Source: Flavobacterium alkalisoli
Lineage (GTDB): Bacteria > Bacteroidota > Bacteroidia > Flavobacteriales > Flavobacteriaceae
NCBI RefSeq assembly: GCF_008000935.1
Contig: NZ_CP042831.1
Coordinates: forward strand, 1,240,001 to 1,304,000
Length of the DNA: 64,000 nt
Direction of reading: 5' to 3'
Part shown: positions 48,520-59,463 of the stretch, piece after piece
How the letters are laid out: each line of letters opens with the position of its first letter
Numbering within the stretch: position 1 is the stretch's first letter
Program-made: the position numbers and the translations under genes
Notes under the pieces: model-generated
The model's database searches: none
Seen by the model: only the letters and a program-made list of their open reading frames with translations
Told to the model about the DNA's origin: nothing

Positions 48520-48849
48520 ATGGCAGATGTAACCATAAAGATAAAAGACAGGGACGGGGTTATGCACGAAGTGCAGGCACCTACCGATATGTCTATGAAT
48601 TTAATGGAACTGGTGAGGGCTTATGAGTTGGCTCCCGAAGGTACTATAGGAGTATGCGGAGGGATGGCCATGTGTGCTTCCTGCCAGTGTTATGTGCTTA
48701 ACGATGTGGAGCTGCCGGAAATAGGTCCTGATGAGGATGCCATGCTTGCCGAAGCTTTTTATGTTAAGCCAAACAGCAGGCTGGGTTGCCAGATACCTAT
48801 AACAGAACAACTGGAGGGACTTGAAATTGAGTTGGCTCCTGAATCATAA
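48520..48849 (+). CDS. 2Fe-2S ferredoxin, adrenodoxin type
   Basis: The 109-residue protein (ATG 48520; a TTG three codons earlier overlaps the previous stop) has the cluster ligands in the order C-x5-C-x2-C (GVCGGMAMCASCQC) and a later Cys in RLGCQIP, the vertebrate/adrenodoxin-type spacing. It carries electrons, most likely from the adjacent ferredoxin reductase, perhaps for Fe-S assembly or a P450-like enzyme; the acceptor is not in the window. Confidence 0.93.
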   Translation: MADVTIKIKDRDGVMHEVQAPTDMSMNLMELVRAYELAPEGTIGVCGGMAMCASCQCYVLNDVELPEIGPDEDAMLAEAFYVKPNSRLGCQIPITEQLEGLEIELAPES

Positions 48850-48851
48850 AT

Positions 48852-48883
48852 AAAAAAAGCGCTTCATTTGAAGCGCTTTTTTT
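48852..48883 (+). terminator. Terminator after the ferredoxin gene
   Basis: A 14-base perfect stem (48852-48865 with 48870-48883, AAAAAAAGCGCTTC/GAAGCGCTTTTTTT), four-base loop. It separates the redox genes from the polyamine operon. Confidence 0.93.
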
Positions 48884-48894
48884 ATTTTAATGTT

Positions 48895-48924
48895 TTTGTT
48901 TTTTGGTAAATAAAAATATCTTTG
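48895..48924 (+). promoter_or_regulatory. Promoter of the speD operon
   Basis: TTTG at 48895-48898, an 18-base spacer and TATCTTTG at 48917-48924 closely match the Bacteroidota promoter form. It lies 27 bases upstream of the speD ATG and right after a terminator, so the operon has its own control. Confidence 0.75.
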
Positions 48925-48950: not shown

Positions 48951-49313
48951 ATGACAAACACTGCATATTCGCCCGGGCTTCATAAACTGCTTACGCTCAG
49001 GGTGGAAAATATCGATAAACTTATAAGCCTTAAGGGGTTTAAAAACTTTTCTGACGGTATTTTATTAAAATACGGATTGGAAGAGGTGGGGTTTTCATCT
49101 CATGTTTTTGATAACGGAAGCTATACTGCGGCCTACTGTTTAAAAGAATCTCATTTATGTATACATACATGGCCTGAGTTTACTCAGTTAACCATGGATG
49201 TGTATTTATGTAATTATCTTAAAGATAATAGTGATAAGGTAAGGGCTATTGCTAAAGAATATATAGATTATTTTGAAGCAGAGGTAATTAAAGACTTTGA
49301 AATTAACCGATAA
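48951..49313 (+). CDS. speD: S-adenosylmethionine decarboxylase proenzyme
   Basis: The 120-residue protein is the short bacterial/archaeal type (as in Thermotoga). The self-cleavage site KESHLCIHTWPE puts the pyruvoyl-forming Ser at 67, His at 72 and the catalytic Cys at 87 (DVYLCN). The spacing Ser +5 His, +20 Cys equals that of the Thermotoga enzyme (63, 68, 83), so it should be active. It makes decarboxylated SAM, the aminopropyl donor. It is the first gene of a seven-gene operon and is only four bases from the DUF4178 gene. Confidence 0.93.
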   Translation: MTNTAYSPGLHKLLTLRVENIDKLISLKGFKNFSDGILLKYGLEEVGFSSHVFDNGSYTAAYCLKESHLCIHTWPEFTQLTMDVYLCNYLKDNSDKVRAIAKEYIDYFEAEVIKDFEINR

Positions 49314-49317
49314 GCGT

Positions 49318-50544
49318 ATGACTTTTACCTGTCCTGAATGCAATACTAAAACACAAACCGAAGTCCCTGTAAATGCGGTTAATTTTGCATGCCCTAACTG
49401 TAGCAGGCTTTTTGGCTTTAATAAAGTAGGAGAAAGCAGGGAACTGAAAAAGTATAAGCACGAATCGGATAATATTGTTTTAAAAACAGGACAAAAAGCA
49501 AAGCTTTTTGGTAAGGAATATGAAGTTACCGGTGCCATAGTTAAAAAGGTTCCACCTAAATATTTTTGGCGTGAATATATACTTGTATCAAAGGATGGAG
49601 AAAAGCGATACCTTTCAGAAACTAACGGTCACTGGATATTTTTAGAAGAAAGCCCCGACCTGTATGATGTGTCTTATTATCCAAGAACATTAACTCATAA
49701 TAATATACAAACAAAATTATATGATTATGCATCGTGTTCTATTGTTCAGTGTGAAGGTTTTTTTGATTTTGAAATTCCGTCACGGGAAATTAAGATGGTG
49801 GAATATATTAATCCGCCCTATGTTGTTTCTATAGAAATAACAGGTAAGGATGAGGTTACTTATTTTGGTAAACATATTTCTGCTTCCGATGTGAAAAAAG
49901 CTTTTAAAATAGAACACATGCCCGAAAAGACAGGGGTAGGTATTGTACAACCTTATCTTTTTGACGTAAGGAATATGGCTATTATATTATCATGTTTTGC
50001 ACTACTTATACTTATAGGACATCTGATAATTTACAGCGGCAGGGAAGAAACAACTGTTTTAAGTAAAAACATGAATTTTTCTGAGTTTAATAATAAAGAT
50101 TATGTAAGCGATTCCTTTGTGCTTAACGGAGCATCGGCCCCGCTTACAATTGCACTAAGCTCGGATGTGAATAATTCCTGGGCTGCCCTTCAGGTAGCAT
50201 TAATAAATGAAAGCACTAACGAAGAGATATATGCCTCAAAAGATATAGAATACTATCATGGTTATGAAGGAGGCGAAAGCTGGAGTGAGGGTAGCCAGAA
50301 TGAGAAGTTCTATATATGCGGCGTGCCTCAGGGCAAATACCATTTAACGCTTACACCTTCAAAACCTTTTGAAAGCAAACAAAACAGTTATATAAACGTA
50401 AATGTAAAATGGAATCAGCCGTCGTTATGGAATGTTTTTTTACCTATAGGTATAATGGCAGGTATAGTGATACTGTTTTATTTTTTAAACCTGTTTTTTG
50501 AACAGCAAAGATGGTCTGAAAGTAACTTTTCACCCTATGAATAG
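49318..50544 (+). CDS. DUF4178 membrane protein with N-terminal zinc ribbon
   Basis: The 408-residue protein begins at ATG 49318; a reading from 49297 overlaps speD. Residues ~4-34 form a zinc ribbon (CPECNTKTQ and ACPNCSRLF). The middle has the DUF4178 domain (LKTGQKAKLFGKEYEVTG, then FWREYILVSKDGEKRYLSE). Two membrane helices (about 220-240 and 378-398) flank an extracytoplasmic beta-rich domain (~250-370). DUF4178 has no known function but recurs next to DUF350 and spermidine-synthase-like genes. It is likely an accessory or sensor part of the operon. Confidence 0.85.
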   Translation: MTFTCPECNTKTQTEVPVNAVNFACPNCSRLFGFNKVGESRELKKYKHESDNIVLKTGQKAKLFGKEYEVTGAIVKKVPPKYFWREYILVSKDGEKRYLSETNGHWIFLEESPDLYDVSYYPRTLTHNNIQTKLYDYASCSIVQCEGFFDFEIPSREIKMVEYINPPYVVSIEITGKDEVTYFGKHISASDVKKAFKIEHMPEKTGVGIVQPYLFDVRNMAIILSCFALLILIGHLIIYSGREETTVLSKNMNFSEFNNKDYVSDSFVLNGASAPLTIALSSDVNNSWAALQVALINESTNEEIYASKDIEYYHGYEGGESWSEGSQNEKFYICGVPQGKYHLTLTPSKPFESKQNSYINVNVKWNQPSLWNVFLPIGIMAGIVILFYFLNLFFEQQRWSESNFSPYE

Positions 50545-50547
50545 TAT

Positions 50548-50748
50548 ATGAACATAGAAAAAATAAAATATTACGTAAAGAATAATTACCCTGCTTTTAT
50601 AATAGGGGTGTTTTTTCTGTTGCTTTTCCTGCAATTTACTTTTGCGGGTAACAGAATATGCGATTGCGAGAAAACCGAAAAATATAATTCTGCTTCCAAT
50701 AGAACACATTCGCGTGCCGGGGGAGTGAATCATTTTTATCATAAATAA
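50548..50748 (+). CDS. Small membrane peptide in the polyamine operon
   Basis: A 66-residue protein with one membrane helix (AFIIGVFFLLLFLQFTFAG, about residues 16-34), then a CDCEKTEKY motif and a His/Ser/Gly-rich tail. It lies three bases after the DUF4178 gene and 11 before DUF350, so it is almost surely co-expressed. I do not recognise a family. The Cys pair (CxC) just after the helix could bind a metal or anchor to a partner; this is inference. Confidence 0.7.
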   Translation: MNIEKIKYYVKNNYPAFIIGVFFLLLFLQFTFAGNRICDCEKTEKYNSASNRTHSRAGGVNHFYHK

Positions 50749-50759
50749 AAACAAATACT

Positions 50760-50972
50760 ATGGATATTTTTTTAAAACCCGTTTTGAGTTCCTTGTTATT
50801 CTCTTTTTTAGGACTTGCTATTTTGTTAATCTCTTACTTTATTGTCGAGAAGCTAACACCCGAAAATACATGGAAAGAAATAGTACAAAATAAAAACATT
50901 GCGCTAGCCATAGTTTTTGCAGCCTTTATAATAGGTATTGCCATTATTATAAGCGGAGCTATACATGGGTAA
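50760..50972 (+). CDS. DUF350 membrane protein
   Basis: A 70-residue protein with two membrane helices (about 8-28 and 48-67) joined by a LTPENTWKEIVQNKNIALAI loop. The pattern, including NxAxAI before the second helix, is DUF350 (as in E. coli YjfL, which has more helices). The function is unknown; the family co-occurs with polyamine-related enzymes in many bacteria. Its last eight bases overlap the aminopropyltransferase gene. Confidence 0.85.
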   Translation: MDIFLKPVLSSLLFSFLGLAILLISYFIVEKLTPENTWKEIVQNKNIALAIVFAAFIIGIAIIISGAIHG

Positions 50973-52482
50973 TAAAAAAATCGGTTTTGAAGTGCTGCTT
51001 TTTCTGGCGGTTTTTACTATAGCCACCTGTGGGCTTGTGTACGAACTTGTAGCCGGTACCCTGGCGAGTTACCTGCTGGGCGATTCGGTAAAGCAGTTTT
51101 CATTTATAATAGGGGTTTACCTTTTTTCTATGGGGGTAGGTTCTTATTTTTCAAAATTCATAAACCGTAATCTTTTAAACACTTTTGTAGATATAGAGAT
51201 ACTGGTAGGCCTTATTGGTGGGCTTAGCTCGGTAATACTTTTTGTGCTGTTTGAAAGTGTTTATTATTTTCAGTTTATACTTTATTTACTGGTTTTTATA
51301 ACCGGATGTTTGGTAGGGCTGGAAATTCCGCTTCTTATGAATATACTTAAAGACAGGGTTACTTTTAAGGATCTTGTTTCTAATGTATTCACTTTTGATT
51401 ATATAGGTGCCCTATTGGCATCCATTCTTTTCCCTTTGGTATTGGTGCCAAAATTAGGGATAATGAAAACATCCCTTTTCTTCGGGATGATTAATGTTAG
51501 TATTGCCATAGTGCTTTGTTTTATGCTTAAAAAAGACCTTAAAAATCCGGGGTTGCTTAAGGCAAAAGCAATATTTACCTTTTTACTGTTATTGGTCGTT
51601 TTTGTTTTCTCGGAGAGTATATTGTCGTACTCTGAAGGAAAACTGTATGGTGAAAATATAATTTATACACATACCACCTCTTACCAGCGTATAGTGCTCA
51701 CCCATAATAAAAATGACTACAGGCTTTACCTTAACAATAACCTGCAGTTTAGCTCTAAAGACGAATACCGCTACCATGAAGCTTTGGTACACCCTGTAAT
51801 GTCTATGGCAAATAAGGTTGACAATGTTTTGGTTTTGGGCGGAGGTGACGGACTTGCAGTACGCGAGATATTAAAGTATAGCGAGGTTAATCATGTAACA
51901 TTAGTAGACCTTGATGAAGGTATGACGGAATTGTTTAAGACCAATACCGTTTTATCGGATTTTAATAAGCACTCATTAACCAATCCTAAGGTAACCGTAA
52001 TTAACAGTGATGCCTATATATGGCTTAAAGAATGCCAACAAAAGTTTGATGTGGTAATTATTGATTTTCCCGATCCGTCAAATTATAGTTTGGGTAAATT
52101 GTATTCGCTTAATTTTTACAAAACTCTTAATAAGGTTTTGACAGATGATGCAATGACTGTTATACAAACCACTTCTCCCTTTTTTGCACCTAAGTCATTT
52201 TGGTGTATCAATAAAACCGCAGCTCAGATTTTTCCGGTTACCGATGCCTATCATGTTTACGTACCTTCTTTTGGGGAGTGGGGGTATACCATAGCAGCTA
52301 AGAGTCTTTCAAAACCATTAGGTAGTGCGAAACGCAGCGTACAGGGTTTAAGGTTTTATGATTATGATTACGGTAGGTTAAATGATTTTCCTAAAGATAT
52401 GCAGGTTAATGATATAGAGATAAACAGACTTGATAACCAGATATTAGTACGTTATTTTGATGAAGAATGGGGAAGGCTATAA
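50965..52482 (+). CDS. Membrane-fused spermidine synthase-like aminopropyltransferase
   Basis: The 505-residue protein has an N-terminal domain of about seven membrane helices (residues ~1-220) and a C-terminal aminopropyltransferase domain with the SAM-type motif LVLGGGDGLAVREILKYS (~290-307), LVDLDEGM, and the catalytic region VVIIDFPDPSNYSLGKLYS (Asp at ~367-370). It transfers the aminopropyl group from decarboxylated SAM (made by the speD product) to an amine acceptor. The membrane domain suggests the reaction is coupled to the envelope. P. aeruginosa SpeE2 (PA4774) is a functional analogue to compare. It overlaps DUF350 at its 5' end and the oxidoreductase at its 3' end. Confidence 0.9.
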   Translation: MGNKKIGFEVLLFLAVFTIATCGLVYELVAGTLASYLLGDSVKQFSFIIGVYLFSMGVGSYFSKFINRNLLNTFVDIEILVGLIGGLSSVILFVLFESVYYFQFILYLLVFITGCLVGLEIPLLMNILKDRVTFKDLVSNVFTFDYIGALLASILFPLVLVPKLGIMKTSLFFGMINVSIAIVLCFMLKKDLKNPGLLKAKAIFTFLLLLVVFVFSESILSYSEGKLYGENIIYTHTTSYQRIVLTHNKNDYRLYLNNNLQFSSKDEYRYHEALVHPVMSMANKVDNVLVLGGGDGLAVREILKYSEVNHVTLVDLDEGMTELFKTNTVLSDFNKHSLTNPKVTVINSDAYIWLKECQQKFDVVIIDFPDPSNYSLGKLYSLNFYKTLNKVLTDDAMTVIQTTSPFFAPKSFWCINKTAAQIFPVTDAYHVYVPSFGEWGYTIAAKSLSKPLGSAKRSVQGLRFYDYDYGRLNDFPKDMQVNDIEINRLDNQILVRYFDEEWGRL

Positions 52483-54085
52483 CAGTTCGAGAAGGACGTT
52501 TTTAAGAAACCTGGGGGCTATAGCTGTCGGGGCTGCCTTTATACAGTCTTGTGCTAAGAAAATTAAGTCAGTTGCCTTAAGGCTCACAGGAACATCTCAT
52601 ATTTTGGGGCATCGTTTGTGGGCTAAAGATTTTCCTAACCCTACAAAGGAGCTTAGTATTCCCATACTTATTGTAGGTGGTGGAATAACAGGATTAAGTG
52701 CTGCAAGGCAACTTATGCGAAAAGGAGCAGAAGATTTTTTACTTATTGAGCTTGAAGATCACACCGGAGGCAATTCCTCTAACGGGGAAAATGCCTATTC
52801 AAAATATCCGCTTGGGGCACACTATCTGCCTCTTCCAAATTTTCACGATAAAGAACTCATTACTTTTTTAGAGGAGGAAAATATAATAACCGGATATGAT
52901 AATGCCGGATATCCTGTTTTTGATGAAGAACAGCTTACTTTTTCGCCTCAGGAAAGACTCTTTTATAAAAACACATGGCAGGAAGGGCTTATACCACGTT
53001 ATGGCACTTCTGAAAAGACGATAGCCGAATTTGACCATTTCTTTAAGCTGATGGAAGGCTTTAGGGATCAAAAAGGAAAGGACGGAAAGTATAGTTTTGA
53101 TTTGCCAATTGAAAACGGTTCTCACGACGCAAATAACAAAGAGTTGGATGCAATAACGATGCAACAATGGCTAACGGATAATGGTTTTAAAACTGAAGAG
53201 GTTTTTGAGTATGTTGACTATTGCTGCCGAGACGATTTTGGTTTGGGAATAAAGTATGTGTCTGCCTGGGCAGGCGTTCATTATTTTGCTGCCAGAAAAC
53301 ATAACAACGGGGAGTCTAATAAAGAAAGCGTGCTTACCTGGCCGGAAGGTAACGCCAGGCTGGCTTCTCACCTAAAAAGATATGCATTAAACAAAACTCT
53401 GGTTAATCATATTGTTTTTGAGGTTGCTTCTGTTGATGATAAGGTTGTGGTTAAGGTCTTTGATGGCCAAAATAAAAAAACCATTGCTATTACAGCAAAT
53501 AAGGTGATAATGGCAATACCACAGTTTGTTAACGGTTATATTTTTAAACAAAGAAAGCCTCTTGTTAAAGAGTTTAATTATGCTCCGTGGCTATTGGCAA
53601 CTATAACGCTAAGCGATTTACCGGATGATTTTGGACAACCACTTTCTTGGGATAATGTTATTTATAAAGGGGAAGGTGTAGGTTACATATACGATCAGCA
53701 TCAGTCTTTAAAGCAGGTACATCAAAAAAAGGTAATTACTTATTATCATGCTTTTTCCTGTAATGATATTGTGGCTAAGCGAAAAGAAGTTTACGGTAAG
53801 GGTAAAGAGTATTGGAAAGAATTTGTACTTAACGATATAAAGAAAGCCCATCCTTGGATTGAAGATTTTACCGAAGATATAGCAATACATATTTTGGGAC
53901 ATGGTATGATAAGCCCTGTTCCCGGATTTATATTTGGTAATGCCAGGAAACAGGCTTCATCTGTTATAGAGAATAAAATATTTTTTGCCCATAGTGACCT
54001 TTCCGGTATTTCGGTTTTTGAGGAGGCTTTTCATCAGGGTATTAATGCAGCAAATAAATTACTAAATGAAACAACCCTGGATTGA
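52460..54085 (+). CDS. Tat-exported FAD-dependent amine-oxidase-like protein
   Basis: From ATG 52460 the 541-residue protein has a Tat signal (SSRRTFLRN, residues 9-17) and a possible lipobox (IQSC, Cys31), so it is likely periplasmic or membrane-anchored. The FAD motif LIVGGGITGLSAARQL lies at ~70-85, followed by LLIELEDHTGGN. The C-terminal HSDLSGISVFEEAFHQG resembles the last FAD-contacting segment of the amine-oxidase/protoporphyrinogen-oxidase group. The substrate is not known; a polyamine is a natural guess from the neighbours. It overlaps the previous gene by 23 bases and the next by 20. Confidence 0.87.
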   Translation: MKNGEGYNSSRRTFLRNLGAIAVGAAFIQSCAKKIKSVALRLTGTSHILGHRLWAKDFPNPTKELSIPILIVGGGITGLSAARQLMRKGAEDFLLIELEDHTGGNSSNGENAYSKYPLGAHYLPLPNFHDKELITFLEEENIITGYDNAGYPVFDEEQLTFSPQERLFYKNTWQEGLIPRYGTSEKTIAEFDHFFKLMEGFRDQKGKDGKYSFDLPIENGSHDANNKELDAITMQQWLTDNGFKTEEVFEYVDYCCRDDFGLGIKYVSAWAGVHYFAARKHNNGESNKESVLTWPEGNARLASHLKRYALNKTLVNHIVFEVASVDDKVVVKVFDGQNKKTIAITANKVIMAIPQFVNGYIFKQRKPLVKEFNYAPWLLATITLSDLPDDFGQPLSWDNVIYKGEGVGYIYDQHQSLKQVHQKKVITYYHAFSCNDIVAKRKEVYGKGKEYWKEFVLNDIKKAHPWIEDFTEDIAIHILGHGMISPVPGFIFGNARKQASSVIENKIFFAHSDLSGISVFEEAFHQGINAANKLLNETTLD

Positions 54086-55097
54086 TAAGGCAAAAACCGA
54101 CAGTATATTTATACTGATGCCCCCATTTGTGGTTTTGGCAATTGTATTTTTTTGCCAGGGATGGCTCATCAATCTTGAAAAAGAATATTCGTTTTATACA
54201 TGGTTGTTTTTTGTGGTGTTTATAGATGTTGCCCATGTATATGCCACTTTATTTAAAACATACTTGGTACCGCAAACTTTCAGGGAAAAAAAGAGGCTGT
54301 TGATAGGATTGCCTATAGTATGTTTCTTTATTGGCCTTATACTTTTTATGTTAGGGAGCAGGGTGTTTTGGATAACGCTTGCCTACATTGCCGTTTTTCA
54401 TTTTATAAGGCAGCAATATGGTTTTATGAGATTGTATTCCAGACTCGAAAATAAAACACGTCTCAGTGTCTTTTTTGATAACCTAACCATATATGCCGCA
54501 ACCGTATACCCAATGCTTTACTGGTTTATGAGTGCGCAAAGAAAGTATACATGGTTTATGGAAAATGAGTTTTTTACTTACAGGAATGATGAACTGCTTG
54601 CTGTTTTTGGTTATGTGTATGTGTTGATATTGGTTATTTATACTGTGAGGGTTATATATACTTTTGCTAAAAGCGGTTATTTTAATATTCCTAAAAATGC
54701 CATAATAATTGGTACCGCCGCTTCCTGGTATTTTGGGATTGTATATTACAATAACGACCTTGTTTTTACCATGCTGAATATAGTTTCACACGGTGTGCCA
54801 TACATGGCATTAATCTATCTTAAAGAAATAAGGCAGCCAAAGCAAAATGCATCGTCATTTATGCAGTATATTAACAGCTATAAAGGAATTATTATATATG
54901 TTGGGCTTTTGTTGCTTTTGGCTTTTTCTGAAGAATACCTTTGGGAAATTACAGTTTGGCAGGAACAGTTCTCTTTTTCAGGAGCGGCTGTATTTCAAAA
55001 CTGGCATTTTTTACTTGTACCATTGCTTGTAGTGCCGCAGTTTACCCACTACATACTTGACGGGTTTATCTGGAAGACCCCTAAGAAAGCAGCATAG
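54066..55097 (+). CDS. Polytopic membrane protein with buried His residues
   Basis: The 343-residue protein has about ten hydrophobic helices and several His in or near them (IDVAHVYATLF, VFHFIRQQYG, IVSHGVPYMALI, QFTHYILDGFIWK). I know no family. The buried His could bind a metal or heme, as in membrane oxygenases/desaturases, but the usual HxxHH boxes are not seen. It is the last gene of the polyamine operon and overlaps the oxidoreductase by 20 bases, so it is probably its membrane partner. Confidence 0.75.
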   Translation: MKQPWIDKAKTDSIFILMPPFVVLAIVFFCQGWLINLEKEYSFYTWLFFVVFIDVAHVYATLFKTYLVPQTFREKKRLLIGLPIVCFFIGLILFMLGSRVFWITLAYIAVFHFIRQQYGFMRLYSRLENKTRLSVFFDNLTIYAATVYPMLYWFMSAQRKYTWFMENEFFTYRNDELLAVFGYVYVLILVIYTVRVIYTFAKSGYFNIPKNAIIIGTAASWYFGIVYYNNDLVFTMLNIVSHGVPYMALIYLKEIRQPKQNASSFMQYINSYKGIIIYVGLLLLLAFSEEYLWEITVWQEQFSFSGAAVFQNWHFLLVPLLVVPQFTHYILDGFIWKTPKKAA

Positions 55098-55190: not shown

Positions 55191-55216
55191 AAAGCCCCTT
55201 CAATTGAAGGGGCTTT
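55191..55216. terminator. Bidirectional terminator after the polyamine operon
   Basis: A 26-base perfect palindrome (AAAGCCCCTTCA and its complement, 55191-55216) with A/T runs. It serves the operon ending at 55097 and the convergent M43 protease gene ending at 55235. Confidence 0.88.
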
Positions 55217-57404: not shown

Positions 57405-58190
57405 TTATATCGAAGCCATATCGTGATGAAGAATGTTTTCTTCTATAGCATTCCATAATCCTATTCTCTTTTCAAGCGCCTGTTTAGAGGTTTCTTCCAC
57501 TTCACGCCATTTTTGCTCATCGTCTCCGCAAAGTTCATTTATCATTTGCATTGCCATTGGTCCGTGCTCGTCGGCATCCAGTTCAATGTGTCTTTCAAAG
57601 TAGTATATAAGCTTGTCAAGGTTTGTTTCCGGGAAGTTTTTCTGGAAGTTTTTCAGTATTTCGGTAAACATGCTCGGGATAAGGTCTTCACGGCCAAAGG
57701 TAAATGCAGCAGCTATCTGGTGAGGCTGGCCCTGATCTATGGTCATAAAAGTAAAGTTTAAAAAATCCTTTATCTTATCGTGCAGGTGACTTTGCTTTAT
57801 CGAAACAAAAATGTTTTGTGTTGCTACCACATCTTCTAGAAATGCCTTTACATCGGTAGTATTGGCACCACAGTCTTTCATGGCATCCACATACATTTCA
57901 TAGTGGCTTAATCTTTTTCCGTCAGCACTAATATCTGTTTCTTCTGCAAGTACAATTTCGTTAATCAGGTAACGAATATCGGGGTTGCCTACAGGAAGCC
58001 ACGGGGTGGTGGTGCATGTAAGTTTAGACTGTAATGCCTTTAACAGCGACATAAAATCCCAAACGGCATATACGTGCCCTTCTAAAAAGCACTTAAGGTC
58101 ATCTATGGTTTTTACTTTTCCGTATAAAGAATGCGTTAACAGAAGGTCTTTTTGGGGTTGGATACTTTTGTTAATGGTATCTGTATTCAT
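57405..58190 (-). CDS. DUF3050 (heme-oxygenase-like fold) protein
   Basis: The 261-residue soluble, mostly helical protein has the DUF3050 pattern, with the N-terminal FLEGHVYAVWDFMSLLKALQ (residues ~35-54), NEIVLAEETDISADGKRLSHYEMY, and the C-terminal FERHIELDADEHGPMA. The spaced His and Glu residues in helices (EGHVYAVWDF, EIVLAEETD, HIELDADEHG) look like a diiron site of the heme-oxygenase-like diiron group, but function is unproven. It lies between terminators and is monocistronic. Confidence 0.87.
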   Translation of the reverse strand: MNTDTINKSIQPQKDLLLTHSLYGKVKTIDDLKCFLEGHVYAVWDFMSLLKALQSKLTCTTTPWLPVGNPDIRYLINEIVLAEETDISADGKRLSHYEMYVDAMKDCGANTTDVKAFLEDVVATQNIFVSIKQSHLHDKIKDFLNFTFMTIDQGQPHQIAAAFTFGREDLIPSMFTEILKNFQKNFPETNLDKLIYYFERHIELDADEHGPMAMQMINELCGDDEQKWREVEETSKQALEKRIGLWNAIEENILHHDMASI

Positions 58191-58211
58191 AGCCTGGTTT
58201 TTTACAAAATT

Positions 58212-58243
58212 AAAAAAGCTTCTTTGTATAAAGAAGCTTTTTT
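58212..58243. terminator. Terminator after the acyl-CoA dehydrogenase
   Basis: A 14-base perfect stem (58212-58225 with 58230-58243, AAAAAAGCTTCTTT/AAAGAAGCTTTTTT), four-base loop. It lies 42-73 bases after the minus-strand stop codon and just upstream of the DUF3050 gene. Confidence 0.9.
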
Positions 58244-58284
58244 TGATTGATTTTTTAAATAAACGTATAATTTATAATTATATT

Positions 58285-59463
58285 TTATTTGAAAGCCGCA
58301 TGGCCAGTAATGTCAAGACCGGTTATTAAAAGGTGAATATCATGTGTTCCCTCATAAGTAATTACACTTTCTAGGTTCATCATGTGACGCATGATAGAAT
58401 ATTCTCCTGTAATACCCATACCGCCTAAAATCTGACGTGCTTCGCGGGCAATGTTAAGAGCCATGTCCACATTATTTCTTTTTGCCATAGAGATTTGTGC
58501 CGTTGTGGCTTTCCCCTCATTTCTTAAAACACCAAGCCTCCACGTTAGTAACTGGGCCTTGGTAATTTCGGTAATCATTTCGGCAAGTTTCTTTTGCTGA
58601 AGTTGTGTTGCAGCAATAGGTTTGTCAAACTGAATACGTTCTTTTGCATAACGCAGTGCCGTATCATAACAATCCATTGCGGCACCAATGGCACCCCATG
58701 CAATTCCGTAACGGGCAGAGTCAAGGCACCCAAGCGGAGCACCAAGACCTGATTTATTTGGTAAAAGGTTTTCTTTAGGGACTTTTACATTGTCAAAAAT
58801 AAGTTCACCGGTAGCCGATGCTCTTAATGACCATTTATTGTGAGTTTCCGGAGTGGAGAATCCTTCCATACCACGCTCTACTATCAAACCGTGAATTCTT
58901 CCTGTTTCGTCTTTAGCCCAAACTACTGCAATATCAGCAAAAGGAGCATTAGAGATCCACATTTTTGCACCGTTTAAAAGGTAATGATCACCCATATCCT
59001 TAAAGTTGGTTATCATACCGCCCGGGTTAGAACCATAGTCTGGCTCAGTTAAACCAAAGCAGCCCATAAACTCACCTGAAGCAAGTTTAGGCAGGTATTT
59101 TTTACGTTGCTCTTCGTTACCATATTTCCATATCGGGTACATAACAAGTGATGACTGTACCGATGCTGTAGAACGAACACCGCTGTCGCCGCGCTCTATT
59201 TCCTGCATGATAAGTCCGTAAGAAATCTGGTCAAGACCGGCACCGCCGTACTCTTCCGGAATATAAGGGCCAAATGCGCCTATATCGGCAAGTCCCTGTA
59301 TTATTTGTTTAGGGAATTCTGCCTTTTGAGCATAATCTTCAATTATTGGAGATACTTCGCGTTTTACCCATTCGCGGGCAGCATCGCGAACCATTTTATG
59401 TTCGTCTGTCAGTAACTCGTCAAGTAAATAGTAATCAGGAGCCTGAAATAAATCTGGTTTCAT
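58285..59463 (-). CDS. Acyl-CoA dehydrogenase, glutaryl-CoA dehydrogenase-like
   Basis: The 392-residue flavoenzyme has ACAD features: EEYGGAGLDQISYGLIMQEIERGDS, CFGLTEPDYGSNPGGM, and the C-terminal GGMGITGEYSIMRHMMNL followed by VITYEGTHDIHLLITG, where the Glu is the catalytic base position of the glutaryl-CoA branch. Glutaryl-CoA dehydrogenase oxidises and decarboxylates glutaryl-CoA to crotonyl-CoA in lysine and tryptophan degradation. The saccharopine-type enzyme ~34 kb away would fit such a route, but that is inference. It is monocistronic. Confidence 0.9.
   Translation of the reverse strand: MKPDLFQAPDYYLLDELLTDEHKMVRDAAREWVKREVSPIIEDYAQKAEFPKQIIQGLADIGAFGPYIPEEYGGAGLDQISYGLIMQEIERGDSGVRSTASVQSSLVMYPIWKYGNEEQRKKYLPKLASGEFMGCFGLTEPDYGSNPGGMITNFKDMGDHYLLNGAKMWISNAPFADIAVVWAKDETGRIHGLIVERGMEGFSTPETHNKWSLRASATGELIFDNVKVPKENLLPNKSGLGAPLGCLDSARYGIAWGAIGAAMDCYDTALRYAKERIQFDKPIAATQLQQKKLAEMITEITKAQLLTWRLGVLRNEGKATTAQISMAKRNNVDMALNIAREARQILGGMGITGEYSIMRHMMNLESVITYEGTHDIHLLITGLDITGHAAFK

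Follow-up and report, generated by a model that had tools for sequence, protein, structure and literature searches.

A conserved seven-gene operon of Flavobacterium as a candidate envelope amine-modification pathway

In a 64,000-nucleotide stretch of the Flavobacterium alkalisoli genome (NCBI RefSeq assembly GCF_008000935.1, contig NZ_CP042831.1, positions 1,240,001 to 1,304,000 of the forward strand; hereafter the window, in whose own numbering coordinates are given), seven adjacent genes at 48951-55097 bring together a SpeD homologue, a DUF4178 protein, a short single-transmembrane (TM) peptide, a DUF350 protein, a membrane-fused SpeE, a flavin adenine dinucleotide (FAD) protein resembling amine oxidases and carrying a twin-arginine translocation (Tat) signal, and a polytopic membrane protein, ORF7 (open reading frame 7). 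That the seven form a conserved unit is supported by their presence, in identical order, at 77 of the 80 best loci compared. We tentatively read the operon as an accessory pathway for envelope amine modification, in which SpeD, membrane-bound SpeE, periplasmic oxidation by the FAD protein and a step carried out by ORF7 would act together.

Operon architecture and conservation

The host genome is a single contig of 3,985,855 bases. Seven plus-strand ORFs fill 48951-55097, with intergenic gaps of 4, 3 and 11 bases and overlaps of 8 bases (DUF350/SpeE), 23 bases (SpeE/FAD protein) and 20 bases (FAD protein/ORF7). An earlier note on this DNA had described such an arrangement, with all genes on one strand, three overlaps and no gap longer than 11 bases, and all seven frames were confirmed on the plus strand. 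The DUF4178 gene starts at its first ATG, 49318; the ORF list gives an earlier TTG at 49297.

48848-48887, plus strand: terminator-like stem of 18 pairs, then TAATGTTTTT; follows the upstream ferredoxin gene and sets the operon apart
48895-48924, plus strand: match to a Bacteroidota-type promoter pattern, TTTG-N18-TATCTTTG, by comparison with what we take to be the consensus
48951-49313, plus strand: SpeD-like class 1b S-adenosylmethionine (AdoMet) decarboxylase homologue (Pfam AdoMet_dc), with an E66-S67 cleavage site, H72 and C87
49318-50544, plus strand: DUF4178 protein, 408 residues, comprising a CxxC pair (zinc-ribbon-like), DUF4178, a TM segment, an extra domain and a second TM segment
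50548-50748, plus strand: single-TM peptide, 66 residues, with a CDC motif and a C-terminal FYHK
50760-50972, plus strand: DUF350 (YjfL-type) membrane protein, 70 residues, two TM segments
50965-52482, plus strand: SpeE, 505 residues, in which a polyamine aminopropyltransferase domain is joined to a 7-TM domain
52460-54085 (ATG start), plus strand: flavin amine oxidase-like protein bearing a Tat signal, whose hydrophobic stretch is followed by a Cys
54066-55097, plus strand: ORF7, polytopic membrane protein with superfamily-invariant D54, H57, H112, Q116, H242, H328 and D332
55191-55216, minus strand: terminator-like stem just past the operon, scored for the converging minus-strand gene

An ORF7 alignment, run against named genomes of bacteria and archaea, confirmed at least 563 places, the best 80 of which were analysed; these belong to Flavobacterium and other Flavobacteriaceae, Chryseobacterium, Epilithonimonas and Elizabethkingia. 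Because the loci were chosen by ORF7, counts among them tell how often the other six families accompany ORF7 and not how frequent the operon is. The three loci departing from the full order are two cut by a contig end (L069 and L117) and one in which no peptide was matched (L119). The earlier note had held that its proposal would fall if gene order were not conserved outside this strain, an objection that the order shared by 77 loci removes. Among the regions of a further eight relatives, six keep the full order (L017-L022), one has six of the families (L023) and one holds a rearranged set (L024, discussed below).

A sample of 395 genomes from the phylum yielded ORF7 in 23 of them: 11 strong copies, counting the host's own, a single broken copy (G419) and 11 distant relatives. 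The regions retrieved cover seven of the ten other strong copies, the broken one and eight of the distant ones. All seven families occur in four of the strong-copy regions (L048-L051), and six were detected by tblastn in the other three (L052-L054), where the peptide that tblastn missed is present on reading as a short TM protein ending in FYHK. The ORF7 of L053 is identical to Pedobacter protein P0121, and that of the window is 95% identical to its counterpart in Flavobacterium beibuense RSKm HC5. The broken copy (L055) is an ORF7 fragment with internal stops and no other operon gene matched nearby, that is, a decayed copy. Two loci carry a small extra gene between SpeE and the FAD protein (L122:7880-8383 and L129:7638-8359), followed in L129 by apparent broken remnants; the insert is perhaps an antitoxin-type module.

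Within the genus, the operon is accessory, not housekeeping. Of 37 Flavobacterium genomes (the host's own included), eight carry a full-length FAD protein gene, and SpeD occurs in those eight, always inside the operon; the other 29, five of them assemblies less than 90% complete, have neither gene.

The promoter described as clear in the earlier note does have its match at exactly 48895-48924, but the full pattern recurs in only 4 of 78 relatives' 200-base upstream stretches, as against 5 of 1560 shuffles of their letters; for the -7 box by itself the counts are 33 of 78 and 185 of 1560. As for the isolating terminator, the upstream stem stands on the plus strand, whereas the downstream one belongs by its scoring to the minus-strand gene. 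Further along the window (57405-59463), genes that read as TenA-like and acyl-CoA dehydrogenase recur close to the operon, the former in 42 and the latter in 44 of the 80 loci, and the operon thus often keeps its chromosomal place.

The polyamine enzymes

SpeE scores 137.6 bits against Pfam Spermine_synth (cut-off 22.9) and, over the full length of the model, 646.3 bits against the NCBIfam polyamine aminopropyltransferase NF002956 (cut-off 472). Hydropathy gives seven TM segments, in agreement with the earlier note's description of an aminopropyltransferase fused to about seven membrane helices. Its relatives of solved structure are polyamine aminopropyltransferases. The motifs GGGDG and DFPDP, presumably serving decarboxylated AdoMet (dcSAM) binding and catalysis, are both present in 79 of the 80 loci, the sole miss being truncated, and PSFGEWG is present in all 80; the sequence thus supports an aminopropyltransferase whose motifs appear intact. 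Beyond the operon, the host genome has one Spermine_synth match above cut-off, which is without the active-site motifs, and a gene of the deoxyhypusine synthase family. In two Flavobacterium strains for which polyamine contents are given in the excerpted text of PMC8570120, sym-homospermidine stood at 27.3 and 20.5 μmol per g dry weight versus 0.2 and 0.3 for spermidine.

The SpeD homologue scores 55.5 bits against Pfam AdoMet_dc (cut-off 25), and the Ser67, His72 and Cys87 pointed out in the earlier note are all in place. The core ESHxx[IV]HTWPE is found in 78 of 78 SpeD loci, and the Cys, and hence all three residues together, in 77 of the 78. The equivalent residues of Thermotoga maritima SpeD, S63, H68 and C83, are those of processing and catalysis, according to the available part of PMC10407285. 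Ornithine and arginine decarboxylase homologues, however, align on the same three positions, where the authors of that study expected these residues to be kept (PMC10407285, in excerpt), so that Ser, His and Cys alone are no proof of dcSAM production. What argues for it is that the sole SpeD stands beside an intact SpeE in the operon, no second SpeD being found in the host genome.

DUF4178 protein, DUF350 protein and FYHK peptide

Between the two polyamine enzymes lie three further families. The DUF4178 protein scores 28.8 bits against its Pfam model (cut-off 25), with zinc-ribbon models below cut-off for the N-terminal CxxC pair, which is nonetheless present in 78 of 79 loci; its TM segments are placed by hydropathy at residues 220-238 and 372-390. 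The DUF350 protein (55.9 bits, cut-off 26) covers profile positions 4-66 of 133, or half a domain. The 66-residue peptide reaches no Pfam or NCBIfam cut-off. A CxC motif is found in all 78 loci with a peptide match, and a [FY][YH]HK end in 78 of 79, of which 77 read [FY]YHK. The peptides of L052-L054 have no CxC or CDC but keep the FYHK end, and the tail is accordingly the peptide's most widely shared part.

The FAD protein and ORF7

The FAD protein and ORF7 occur together in all 80 ORF7-selected loci, with genes that usually overlap. The former scores 40.3 bits against Pfam Amino_oxidase (PF01593; cut-off 19.8), and structure prediction supports a flavin amine oxidase fold. Putrescine oxidase is among its best-ranked structure matches, with the spermidine dehydrogenase SpdH lower; identity to putrescine oxidase, NicA2 and SpdH is about 12-18%. 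The window protein begins with the Tat signal SSRRTFL, the motif reading RR in 58 of the 80 loci and RK in 22, and TatC was found. The earlier note's Tat oxidoreductase is thereby borne out as regards an SRRxF-type signal, a Tat system and a predicted fold, from which export would be expected.

ORF7 has no significant match in Pfam, NCBIfam or the PDB, an absence that does not exclude a di-iron hydroxylase or desaturase, a Blh-type protein or a b-type cytochrome. An alignment of 16 sequences, the most divergent about 18% identical, shows D54, H57, H112, Q116, Y118, G119, H242, H328, Y329 and D332 as invariant. In the predicted model (100 sequences; predicted local distance difference test 84.5, predicted template modeling score 0.83) the four histidines sit within four long helices. 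Distant relatives, from Balneola, Rhodothermus and others by name, have extra H-x4-H, H-x4-H-x5-HH and HH patterns, which would recall membrane di-metal oxygenases. At the eight distant loci (L056-L063) no match to any of the other six window proteins lies nearby, and around seven of these loci the flanking genes read as unrelated. The operon so contains both a member of an unnamed membrane superfamily (ORF7) and a conserved micro-protein.

Relation to known systems

The nearest published relatives are operons combining a 7TM spermine synthase, DUF350 and DUF4178, tied to PspA-CesT and carrying the lipoprotein Ctha_1186 (PMC11237479, in excerpt). These CesT/Tir-PspA operons, like that of the window, unite DUF350 and DUF4178 with a 7TM-fused aminopropyltransferase; the window operon differs in that neither PspA nor CesT lies within it or close by. 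As the class is described in that excerpt, its DUF350 protein has 8 TM segments, compared with a 70-residue protein in the window. In the window operon the FYHK peptide stands at the lipoprotein position, and the FAD protein and ORF7 are additions. Variants lacking the CesT-PspA dyad, with an AdoMet decarboxylase and a polyamine oxidase, are assigned to an ATP-grasp/potassium channel group in the same excerpt. Like the window operon, they are PspA-less, but they carry DUF4247/DUF2617 or band-7-SHOCT proteins, families to which the seven window proteins gave no match.

A PspA-CesT cluster is seen in L024, which belongs to the same order and another family. On one strand it reads CesT-PspA-SpeD-ion channel-DUF4178-lipoprotein-DUF350-SpeE, of which the part from SpeD to SpeE matches the window order apart from the channel; on the opposite strand a second SpeE, ORF7 and the FAD protein converge on this set, followed by PspA, YqiJ-like and flotillin-like genes. 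Pfam backs CesT, both PspA proteins, SpeD, the channel, DUF4178 and DUF350, and the lipoprotein, YqiJ and flotillin are named by reading, with no Pfam match. The DUF350 protein here has 296 residues; the DUF4178 protein has 176, the window form being larger and TM-fused. The cluster spans 14 genes (L024:2074-16534), including two PspA and two SpeE, and is possibly an ancestral or merged form.

The CesT-PspA dyad is not among the seven window genes; a distance of about 483 kb separates the operon from PspA in the host genome, which has a separate CesT-PspA-YqiJ-flotillin locus (L159, G000:C1 around 804890-805980). Searched by tblastn, the L024 CesT and PspA proteins gave no match in L017-L023, L048-L063 or L064-L143.

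The earlier note had also invoked Pseudomonas aeruginosa SpeD2/SpeE2 (PA4773/PA4774), for which PMC11107197 cites work making a link to surface polyamine. A shared feature is a speD upstream of an aminopropyltransferase gene, directly so in P. aeruginosa. The parallel is nonetheless weak, since SpeE2 has 349 residues and was identified as a thermospermine synthase, whereas the window SpeE has 505 residues and is fused to seven TM segments; none of the operon's five other families is named in the excerpted text of PMC11107197. The same note considered the full set undescribed. It was indeed not found in the open-licence literature, outside which most subscription papers lie, but its families stand close to the published PspA-CesT class, which the note did not name and which is the nearest described in what was available (PMC11237479).

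A proposed pathway and its alternatives

In the pathway that we tentatively favor, SpeD would supply dcSAM in the cytoplasm, and the SpeE domain, whose motifs are in place, would aminopropylate an acceptor at the inner membrane, tethered there by its own seven TM helices. The DUF4178 protein, the DUF350 protein and the FYHK peptide, which co-occur with SpeE, may form a membrane scaffold around it. The putative flavin amine oxidase, once exported by Tat, would act on the periplasmic side and oxidise the aminopropylated product there, and ORF7, with its four conserved TM histidines, might then accept electrons from the FAD or carry out the next, membrane-buried metal-dependent step. The likely outcome would be a modified cationic envelope component rather than bulk spermidine; the lipid or wall component proposed in the earlier note might be such a target. 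A more specific version, which we think quite unlikely and which would be a previously undescribed envelope chemistry, has SpeE aminopropylating an acceptor held in the membrane, be it a lipid head group or the conserved C-terminal Lys of the [FY]YHK micro-protein, with the periplasmic flavin amine oxidase and ORF7 maturing the product.

Several observations weigh against this pathway. SpeD scores 47.4 bits against the NCBIfam equivalog TIGR03330, below the cut-off of 75.65, and its catalytic Cys is replaced by Ser in L052, L053 and L054 (other families) and by Tyr in L127, so that decarboxylation is not assured in all copies. Nicotine, cyclohexylamine and protoporphyrinogen enzymes match the FAD protein at nearly equal Z. 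Weeksellaceae copies mostly carry RK instead of RR, and Tat export is therefore less certain in them. The side of the membrane on which the peptide lies is ambiguous, and no [FY][YH]HK peptide is present in L119, where the peptide ends otherwise, or in L023, where none was found. The metal or heme role of ORF7 is read solely from conserved residues and a predicted model.

The chief rival, in our estimate rather unlikely, is a membrane-coupled synthase and exporter of free polyamine (spermidine, thermospermine or aminopropylated homospermidine), with the SpeE TM domain exporting and the flavoenzyme trimming or degrading surface polyamine. This would suit the complete aminopropyltransferase model in SpeE and the presence of putrescine oxidase and, further down, SpdH among the structure matches of the FAD protein, as well as the spermidine traces in the two Flavobacterium strains, which may or may not carry the operon (PMC8570120, in excerpt). 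However, spermidine in those strains is only about 1% of homospermidine (PMC8570120), and a simple synthase needs no DUF4178, DUF350, FYHK peptide or ORF7, yet the order is kept in 77 of 80 loci. Quite unlikely in turn, though compatible with the envelope pathway, is that the FAD protein and ORF7 are a respiratory pair, a periplasmic amine dehydrogenase passing electrons through two b hemes on the four ORF7 histidines to quinone. Their constant company and the invariant TM histidines fit such a pair, and SpdH moves electrons from FAD to heme b (PMC12564564, in excerpt); but the distant ORF7 relatives L056-L063 have no FAD protein match nearby, their paired extra histidines look more like a metal oxygenase, and an invariant Asp and Gln beside His suit, in our judgement, a metal better than heme.

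The operon might instead be a PspA-less branch of the phage-shock-protein-type membrane-stress systems, in which the role of the polyamine enzymes would be to tune the state of the membrane or report on it, with no new product built. The families and order shared with the L024 cluster (lipoprotein or peptide in the same position, ion channel added there), the published 7TM synthase/DUF350/DUF4178 class and the dyad-less variants of its related group (PMC11237479, in excerpt) and the host's own CesT-PspA-YqiJ-flotillin locus all point this way. We nevertheless regard it as improbable: CesT and PspA occur in just three of the 37 same-genus genomes, two of the eight that bear the operon (the host being one) and one that does not. 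Least probable, in our view, is a drift of SpeD and SpeE in which the SpeD homologue decarboxylates another substrate, or is inactive in some lineages, and the system works without dcSAM. The low TIGR03330 score, the Ser of L052-L054 and the wide spread of homologues with altered substrate (PMC10407285, in excerpt) speak for drift, and they leave the earlier note's expectation that SpeD should make dcSAM upheld in its residues but qualified by their sharing with ornithine and arginine decarboxylases. Against drift stand the core kept in all 78 SpeD loci, the Cys kept in 77 of them, and a single SpeD beside a single intact SpeE.

Biological significance

Decarboxylated AdoMet is the textbook precursor for free polyamines. 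If SpeE does aminopropylate a membrane-held acceptor, dcSAM would be used outside free polyamine synthesis, and the combination of a membrane transferase, an exported amine oxidase and a conserved membrane protein, in a genus whose main polyamine is reported to be homospermidine, points to a second, envelope use of this metabolite. Because the operon is compact, occurs in many Flavobacterium that can be cultured and is missing from 29 of the 37 genomes sampled in the genus, the envelope question is open to genetic testing. It also places three families, DUF4178, DUF350 and the ORF7 superfamily, in a genomic setting.

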